Of a stretch of DNA of 38,517 bases, positions 1-2,138 are shown piece after piece; position 1 is the first letter of the stretch; each line of letters starts with the position of its first letter. This DNA is from Spirochaetota bacterium. GTDB taxonomy: Bacteria; Spirochaetota; Brachyspiria; Brachyspirales; JACRPF01. The position numbers and the translations under genes were made by a program. The stretch covers positions 1 to 38,517 of the forward strand of contig JBBTBY010000031.1 of NCBI GenBank assembly GCA_038043445.1, read 5' to 3'. The notes under the pieces are model-generated. The model ran no database searches and was not told where the DNA came from. It saw only the letters and a program-made list of their open reading frames with translations.

Positions 1-101
1 TCGGCAACACTGTGCGGGGTGTCGGCAACACTGTGCGGGGAGTCGGCAACACTGTGCGGGGAGTCGGCAACACTGTGCGGGGAGTCGGCAACGCGTGCGC
101 C
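1..101. repeat. 21-bp tandem repeat at the window edge
   Basis: Four complete copies of a 21-bp unit beginning TCGGCAACACTGTGCGGGG lie at 1-21, 22-42, 43-63 and 64-84. A fifth copy (85-101) decays after TCGGCAAC. Copies 2-4 are identical and copy 1 differs by one base near its end. Because 21 is a multiple of three, the array stays open in one + frame and would encode a GVGNTVR heptapeptide. No start signal or recognisable downstream protein domain supports translation. The array touches the window edge, so its true copy number is unknown. Confidence 0.9.
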
Positions 102-896: not shown

Positions 897-956
897 GCAT
901 AACAAGCGAGTGGAGCGGACAAGTGAGTACACTTGCCGCTCACTCTTCCGTTGGCG
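897..956 (+). repeat. attC1 integron recombination site
   Basis: R'' is GCATAAC (897-903). L'' is GTGGAGCGG (910-918), pairing with L' CCGCTCAC (936-943) if one G (912 or 913) is left extrahelical. The inner stem CAAGTG (920-925) pairs with CACTTG (930-935) around the loop AGTA (926-929). R' is GTTGGCG (950-956), with the expected cut after G950. At 60 nt it is at the short end of the attC size range. An extrahelical base in the L'' arm is a known attC feature that directs strand choice by the integrase. Confidence 0.88.
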
Positions 957-972
957 CAATTAAGGAGAATAA

Positions 973-1494
973 ATGAGAAATATAAAAGTATTATTATTAA
1001 TAACGGCAATTATAACGGTTATATACGGAATGACAAAGATTAATAGCAAATCAATTAATCACGTAAACGATACAGCTAAATTATTTAATAGCAATGAAAT
1101 ATATCAATTAAATTCAATGTTGAGTTCATTTTCTTCAGATTACGGTCCACAAATCGTTGTAATGACAATACAACAACTACCAACAAATCAGACTATTGAA
1201 GAATATTCTATAAATATTGCAAATAATCTACGAATTGGCCGAAAAAAATATGATGATGGTCTTCTTATTTTATTTTCATTAAATGATCGTTCAATACGAA
1301 TTGAAGTAGGTTATGGACTTGAAAAAATAATACGTGATGATATTGCAGCAAATATCATTCGCTATCAAATAGCACCACAATTTAAAAATAAAATGTTCTA
1401 TGACGGCATCAATAATGCATTATTTGAGATAACTAATGAAATAATTAGAAATAAAAAACTGATTGGTGATAAAAAAGGAATAAAATATGAATAA
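973..1494 (+). CDS. Cassette 2: membrane-anchored TPM-domain protein
   Basis: This 173-residue protein has an N-terminal hydrophobic segment (about residues 5-21), likely a signal anchor, followed by a TPM domain (residues about 30-155). Family hallmarks are the early segment predicting loss of catalytic extension (NSMLSSFSSDYGPQIVVMT), the middle DDGLLILFSLNDR strand and the IRIEVGYGLE motif. TPM proteins (YgcG, Psb32, MOLO-1) are small extracytoplasmic domains tied to photosystem repair, receptor accessory roles and weak phosphatase activity; the bacterial role is poorly defined. Here the usual C-terminal glycine-rich tail is absent. The gene has a clear ribosome binding site (AAGGAG, 962-967), only a few bases after the cassette boundary, and ends 5 nt before attC2. 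The anchor predicts an extracytoplasmic domain. Confidence 0.82.
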   Translation: MRNIKVLLLITAIITVIYGMTKINSKSINHVNDTAKLFNSNEIYQLNSMLSSFSSDYGPQIVVMTIQQLPTNQTIEEYSINIANNLRIGRKKYDDGLLILFSLNDRSIRIEVGYGLEKIIRDDIAANIIRYQIAPQFKNKMFYDGINNALFEITNEIIRNKKLIGDKKGIKYE

Positions 1495-1499
1495 TATGC

Positions 1500-1559
1500 G
1501 CCCAACAGACGGGTGCAGCAGACAAGCGAGTACGCTTGCCGCTGACCCTTCCGTTGGCC
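1500..1559 (+). repeat. attC2 integron recombination site
   Basis: R'' is GCCCAAC (1500-1506), an exact match to RYYYAAC. L'' GGGTGCAGC (1511-1519) pairs with L' GCTGACCC (1541-1548) leaving G1515 extrahelical. The inner stem CAAGCG (1523-1528) pairs with CGCTTG (1533-1538) around AGTA (1529-1532). R' is GTTGGCC (1553-1559). Relative to attC1 the inner stem differs by a compensatory pair change (T-A to C-G at its fifth pair), and the L arms differ together, which supports folding of the element. Confidence 0.9.
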
Positions 1560-1571
1560 AGAATGTTAATA

Positions 1572-2108
1572 ATGAATAGAATATTTTTTATTCTTATACT
1601 TTTATTGACAAGTCATCATGCTATATATACAAACGACAGTAACAAATCAAATATAGATTTTGAAAATAGTAAAAATTACAAACTGCTGGATAATTATTTA
1701 TTATTTGGGGCAACATTTGGTACACCAACAATAATTAATATAAATATTGGCTATCATACTAAATATTTCGGTGTACAATTATCTGGATTATATTTAATTG
1801 AAATACATGGCGCACAAATAAATGTGATGGGAATATTACAAAATAGTGAGCATGTTTTATTAGGATTTTCACTAATTGGTGGATATACTCCTCTATTAAG
1901 TTTTAAAGGCGGGAAGACATCGTTTAGTCCTTTTGTAGGTGGTACTGCAAATATAAATCTTAGTATATTTTACATCGAAATCGGGTTAGCAAAACATTTC
2001 GATAGCTATGAAAGCTATGAAATGATTAGATTGAAATTTCAACTTGGAATATTATTCAGATTGAATAGAGAATATAAGACTGGTCAACAAGGTGGAGCCG
2101 ACAAATGA
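1572..2108 (+). CDS. Cassette 3: secreted, possibly outer-membrane protein of unknown function
   Basis: I chose the ATG at 1572, giving 178 residues (MNRIFFILILLLTSHHAIYT...). A longer frame from 1536 would start inside attC2 and adds an unlikely extension; ATG 1563 is an alternative. No clear ribosome binding site is visible. Residues 1-18 form a signal peptide. The remainder alternates polar and apolar residues in strand-like stretches (for example IININIGYHTKYFGVQLSGLY and INLSIFYIEIGLAKHF), with many Gly and aromatic residues, as in small outer-membrane beta-barrels. No named family is recognised. The stop codon (2106-2108) lies inside attC3, so the last residues (GQQGGADK) are encoded by the recombination site itself and would change if the cassette joined a different 3' neighbour only beyond the crossover. 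Confidence 0.7.
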   Translation: MNRIFFILILLLTSHHAIYTNDSNKSNIDFENSKNYKLLDNYLLFGATFGTPTIININIGYHTKYFGVQLSGLYLIEIHGAQINVMGILQNSEHVLLGFSLIGGYTPLLSFKGGKTSFSPFVGGTANINLSIFYIEIGLAKHFDSYESYEMIRLKFQLGILFRLNREYKTGQQGGADK

Positions 2109-2138
2109 GTACATTTGCCGCTCACCCTTCCGTTGGGC
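2082..2138 (+). repeat. attC3 integron recombination site
   Basis: R'' is GGTCAAC (2082-2088), one base off the partner predicted from the cassette 5' end. L'' GGTGGAGCCG (2091-2100) pairs with L' CCGCTCACC (2118-2126) with one extrahelical G and one mismatch. The inner stem CAAATG (2102-2107) pairs with CATTTG (2112-2117) around AGTA (2108-2111). R' is GTTGGGC (2132-2138), an exact GTTRRRY. The inner stem again differs from attC1 and attC2 by compensatory pairs while the loop is unchanged. Confidence 0.88.

Follow-up and report, generated by a model that had tools for sequence, protein, structure and literature searches.

A short integron cassette array headed by a putative promoter and an attI-like leader in a Spirochaetota genome, and the possible service of several such arrays by one unlinked integrase

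The DNA analysed here (the window, 38,517 nt) is the whole of contig C31 of a 178-contig draft genome of 5.13 Mb from an uncultured Spirochaetota bacterium. Its positions 453-2710 probably represent a short sedentary-integron array, belonging to a system in which one unlinked integrase serves several arrays headed by an attI-like site and a promoter. A more specific form of this reading, which we favour with less assurance, is a distributed integron in which a solo integrase would serve at least four such arrays in trans, each promoter driving its own genes, with C as the second extrahelical base of the attC sites. The data thus suggest that one enzyme serves several scattered gene-capture platforms. 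The argument is built by sequence comparison from the anatomy and covariation of the attC sites, the cassette boundaries, the conserved leaders, the absence of intI beside the arrays, the single IntI found elsewhere and an off-target insertion.

The cassette array of the window

The features of the array, all on the + strand, are as follows.

453-538, +, leader ending in an attI-like junction, with G538 as its last base
458-486, +, putative cassette promoter (Pc-like), -35 TTGACT, 17-nt spacer, -10 TATAGT
539-950, +, gene cassette 1, 412 bp, GC 26%, ORF 567-866 (99 aa), no Pfam family
896-957, +, attC1, inner stem CAAGTG/CACTTG, AGTA loop, 77.4 bits with the covariance model
951-1553, +, gene cassette 2, 603 bp, ORF 973-1494, TPM-domain protein (PF04536, E=8e-33)
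1498-1560, +, attC2, inner stem CAAGCG/CGCTTG, AGTA loop, 73.9 bits
1554-2132, +, gene cassette 3, 579 bp, ORF 1572-2108, R'' matching the cassette's own start at 9/12 positions, no Pfam family
2080-2139, +, attC3, inner stem CAAATG/CATTTG, AGTA loop, spacer shorter by 3 nt, 71.1 bits
2133-2703, +, gene cassette 4, 571 bp, ORF 2158-2616 (152 aa), own-start match 10/12, no Pfam family
2624-2710, +, attC4, decayed, R'' CGCCCAAC and CCCTTC kept, stem degenerate, R' without its G

A preliminary description of this region had reported three attC sites with covarying inner stems around an invariant AGTA loop. These are present with the stems and loop that it gave, and with AAC (R'') and GTT (R') boxes flanking the L''/L' stem; that they are attC sites is near certain. 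As an inventory the description was incomplete, since it omitted the leader and a decayed fourth site, which belongs to cassette 4, and an array of only three sites was consequently rejected. In attC4 the AAC is retained and R' reads ATT instead of GTT; it shows no attC fold and no match to the covariance model, and its assignment rests on the agreement between R'' and the start of cassette 4. The more interesting part, which had been missed, is that this is an integrase-less array with a putative promoter and attI-like leader, and that four such arrays are present in the genome.

When a true cassette is circular, its own start supplies the R' with which its R'' pairs. Across 20 cassettes of two genomes (this one and a relative, G001, introduced below), counting positions beyond GTT, R'' agrees with its own cassette start at 147 of 180 nt, versus 72 with partners shuffled (0/20,000 shuffles), and at 72 of 99 versus 43 in this genome alone. 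A cassette located on contig C66 entered this comparison with a wrong start, which counts against the result; with the right one it matches at 11/12. The match spans 11-12 nt in several cassettes. In the window, the start of cassette 1 (GTTATGCCA) is the reverse complement of its own R'' over 9 nt and cassette 2 gives the weakest match (7/12). The preliminary description had stood to fall if the sites occurred without cassettes or as an ordinary dispersed repeat; they bound cassettes, and the lone site of C66 is likewise part of a complete one. GC content is 29% in the cassettes versus 56% in the remainder of the contig.

Products of cassettes elsewhere in the genome include GrpB, a HAD hydrolase, VapB-PIN and a Phd-type antitoxin, the latter with a possible Gp49-like partner that lies under the Pfam cut-off. 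Cassettes 2 and 4 have 37-nt starts (962-998 and 2147-2183) that are 92% identical and include the ribosome-binding site and first codons, while their proteins differ. The stop codon (TGA) of the cassette 3 ORF sits within attC3 (window 2081-2108), and a reading frame similarly enters the attC site at C66, C27 and four sites of the G001 loci L051 and L052. In these seven cassettes, from two genera, the frame ends at the TGA of TGAGTA (TGATCG in C27), with a tail of the type QQAxGAxK in six of the seven frames and a diverged one in the seventh. In G001, three cassettes in a row (L051 7678-8797), each of 372-376 bp and without a long ORF, resemble near copies of one another, and the contig of that genome on which cassettes continue has at its start (L052 1-150) a stretch resembling an insertion-sequence end, so that the array there may be interrupted.

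Structure and distribution of the attC sites

The core CAARYGAGTACRYTTG occurs seven times in the 5.13-Mb genome, spread over C31, C66, C117 and C150, and its reversed control does not occur. Together with a more diverged one from C117, these seven sites give a gap-free alignment of 47 columns. Of the stem cells of this eight-site alignment, 96.1% pair on the bottom strand, versus a mean of 87.0 in shuffled alignments, none of 500 reaching the observed value; changes on both sides are found in 8 of 16 pairs (0/500 shuffles), and sliding the partners by 1-3 columns drops pairing to 32-44%. On the top strand, 93.8% of the cells pair, and the wobble tally (8 on the bottom versus 4 on the top strand) is too small to count. 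The covariation between L'' and L' noted previously is confirmed, with G-C/A-T at columns 2/37 and G-C/C-G at columns 6/34. Seven different inner-stem pairs occur among the 18 intact sites of the two genomes, including TTCGCG/CGCGAA and TTCGTG/CACGAA, with AGTA in all.

The unpaired G that had been placed in each L'' is fixed at L'' position 5, because position 6 covaries with L' (G-C to C-G); position 6 was therefore rejected as the extrahelical base, and that register also fits worse. It reads C, however, on the strand bound by integrases. A second unpaired base had been overlooked, A on the top and T on the bottom strand, six pairs inward from this C, and the sites therefore read T-N6-C on the folded strand. 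This holds for 9/9 sites of the family in this genome, and 8/9 of those in G001 read A-N6-C. In the folded bottom strand, which we infer to be the strand used as integrase substrate, one arm holds both extrahelical bases. In most attC sites the second extrahelical base is G, giving the usual T-N6-G pattern; when four integrases were tested, sites with the N6 spacing were excised most efficiently, and for three of the four enzymes excision rose when the second extrahelical base was C (PMC3053210).

A covariance model of these sites, proposed earlier as a means of searching this lineage, recovers nine strong sites in this genome and nine in one genome of the same family, Spirochaetes bacterium NC_groundwater_1980_Pr3_S-0.2um_53_5 (G001), which belongs to another genus. 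Among 60 relatives, matches occur in G001 only. In a sample of 296 genomes of the phylum, 35 of them with an IntI, only these two match at E<=0.001, and the core pattern was found in no other species among 84,980 species genomes scanned. The model thus works as a lineage-specific search model, and the earlier attribution of the sites to a spirochaetal chromosomal integron lineage is supported.

Leaders, and an integrase encoded elsewhere

The leader of the window is common to C31, C150, C117 and, more distantly, C27, and comprises in order a putative promoter, about 50 nt, and an attI-like junction followed by the first cassette. A sequence model of the leader has exactly four matches in the genome (E 6e-24 to 2e-18; the following hit E 0.69) and one in G001 (E 3e-13; further matches above 0.1). 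All five leaders directly precede a cassette, and the same search found no empty leader elsewhere in the genome. The last base of each is the G of a junction resembling GTTRRRY, and the distance from the -35 to the junction is 81-85 nt in 5/5. The consensus score of the promoter is no better than chance in the window region (4 found versus 4.3 expected); the arrangement TTGACW-N17 is kept across leaders, and it is because of this conservation and its position that the promoter is assigned. Promoter function and recombination at the leader are both predicted on these grounds.

Several further elements were observed around the leaders. The first cassette starts with GTTAGG in four of the five arrays (C150, C117, C27 and G001), a start absent from all other cassettes among the 20 examined. 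Upstream of the leader, a 21-bp tandem repeat (TCGGCAMCACTGTGCGGRGAG) is found in C31 (window 1-90) and in C117 (L019 12440-12500). In the window, a perfect 15/15 palindrome at 400-429 (GAGAACAAGGGGTCG/CGACCCCTTGTTCTC), followed by a T-rich stretch, forms a terminator-like element that closely precedes the leader.

No intI adjoins any of the four leader-headed arrays, and tblastn detected no IntI in the window or at the C150, C117 and C27 array loci. The only IntI of the genome above the curated cut-off is at the end of C109 (TIGR02249, 335 bits versus 265) and corresponds to the C-terminal 258 aa; a second, N-terminal piece lies at the end of C70. The two contig ends overlap by ~68 nt with 6 mismatches, one of which gives a stop. 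All six mismatches set a base against its complement (G/C or T/A) and lie near the contig tails, so that the two pieces are likely one split intI gene, though they may instead represent two separate genes or a damaged gene. The gene upstream of the C70 piece is ispG, which has the same orientation and is separated from it by about 240 bp that contain no leader; downstream of the C109 piece come a small ORF and then, on the opposite strand, an ABC-transporter gene. These two neighbours, ispG and the ABC transporter, are on different contigs in G001, so that synteny of C70 and C109 is not informative there.

Motifs carrying the catalytic R, H, R, H and Y are present in the IntI of this genome. 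As regards a possible link between the extrahelical C and altered IntI contacts, two of the contact positions are K and R in this IntI, and presumably also in IntI1. In the G001 enzyme, R and Y occupy the positions aligned to VchIntIA P232 and H240, which contact the first extrahelical base. G001 encodes a full-length IntI (375 bits) that aligns to VchIntIA (2A3V) across the whole catalytic part; the IntI sequences of the two genomes share 51%. In both genomes (L051 5811-7151; L017 12101-12649) IntI has an N-terminal extension of ~100 aa before the SAM-like domain, and other spirochaete IntI frames are also long. The intI gene of G001 is divergent from the leader and cassettes, and the leader lies between intI and a run of six cassettes, as in the classical layout.

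In the mechanism proposed, the promoter would read into the attI-like junction, circular cassettes would be inserted there between G and TTRRRY, and the nearest cassettes would be transcribed from that promoter. The folded bottom strand of each attC would be the substrate of a tyrosine integrase which, encoded once downstream of ispG, would act in trans on the four leader-headed arrays.

Alternative explanations and comparison with known systems

A vapBC cassette of 703 bp stands alone on C66, where it interrupts a dispersed repeat. The insertion point is CCGCATATCATGTG^ATAGCTTAAGGATATGC; the flanks, once joined, restore the repeat consensus exactly, and the repeat is found uninterrupted at seven other places of the genome. 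The target sequence, G^AT, conforms to the GNT consensus of IntI1 secondary sites (PMC4618277). Judged from these flanks, this is a precise non-att, off-target cassette insertion, showing that cassettes of this attC family have moved as units. This cassette (L020 17879-18495, G000:C66) carries a promoter-like TTGACA...TATATT of its own.

The main rival to an integrase serving the arrays in trans is that these are relics, i.e. ordinary CALINs derived from complete integrons that lost intI and now served by no integrase. CALINs have been proposed to be degraded integrons (PMC9024848), and in Xanthomonas they occur at several loci away from intI (PMC12444791). The terminal attC sites at window attC4, C150b and the second site of C27 are decayed, with degenerate R' boxes, and some decay has therefore happened; single attC remnants are also found on C75 and C98. 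Against this, nine attC sites retain their stem with compensatory changes, the four leaders keep promoter and junction even though their flanks have diverged, and the genome has retained an IntI with the catalytic motifs, so that we consider a relic status for the arrays unlikely. Decayed sites of the same family were also observed at L049 5825-6400 and L050 6993-7039 (35.8, 14.4 and 30.9 bits), the pair in L049 flanking a gene that resembles an HNH nuclease.

Much less probable is an assembly artefact, in which one or a few complete integrons would have been split by metagenome assembly into the present arrays. The genome is a draft, a kind of assembly in which CALINs are overestimated (PMC9024848), and the C31 and C150 arrays, as well as intI, are near contig ends. 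An intI further out is possible at C31 and C150 because these contigs begin 457 and 197 nt upstream of the leader -35, distances that nevertheless exceed the one between intI and the -35 in G001. Break-up cannot explain the C117 and C27 arrays, which have kilobases without intI on both sides; moreover, each array has its own leader, and it is ispG, not attI, that lies upstream of the C70 intI piece. Finally, the sites on other contigs could be cited in favour of an ordinary dispersed hairpin repeat without relation to integrons, but this reading is rejected by the match of each R'' to its own cassette start, and also conflicts with the IntI beside such an array in G001 and with two conserved extrahelical bases six pairs apart.

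If a single integrase does act in trans, the genome would run multiple expression platforms in parallel, kept without a local intI. The lineage also provides a natural set of T-N6-C attC sites. Since attI sites are poorly described outside class 1 (PMC9024848), the five leaders offer a chance to define attI there. In the literature covered, outside which most subscription journals lie, no description was found of several attI/promoter-headed arrays with one unlinked integrase.

Sedentary chromosomal integrons, such as the Vibrio cholerae VCR/VchIntIA system (PDB 2A3V), have the same R''/R' and L''/L' arrangement, two extrahelical bases on one arm and cassettes; K209, Y210 and W219 of VchIntIA are kept in IntI, and an attI-like leader and putative promoter lie beside intI in G001. 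The present arrays differ from sedentary chromosomal integrons in that the genome's own integrase is beside none of the four leaders, that the second extrahelical base is C and not G, and that the match of R'' to its own cassette start extends to 9-12 nt in most cassettes. Integrons typically have one attI close to intI (PMC9024848); intI next to an attI-like site, as in a complete integron, is found in G001 but neither in the window nor beside the arrays on C150, C117 and C27. As in CALINs, two or more attC sites without intI nearby occur at several loci of the genome, C31 and C150 being near contig ends, whereas the CALIN definition does not include the conserved putative promoter and attI-like leader with which all four arrays start. 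Treponema integrons likewise have spirochaete hosts and short attC sites (63-68 bp in T. denticola), but their intI reads toward attI and has the orientation of the cassettes (PMC3607928), while intI is divergent in G001 and unlinked in this genome. Lastly, the vapBC cassette of C66, inserted in a genomic repeat at G^AT, resembles the attG insertions, non-att genomic cassette insertions attributed to Loot et al. 2024 as cited in PMC12444791, from which it differs as a natural insertion for which uninterrupted copies of the target repeat are present in the same genome.
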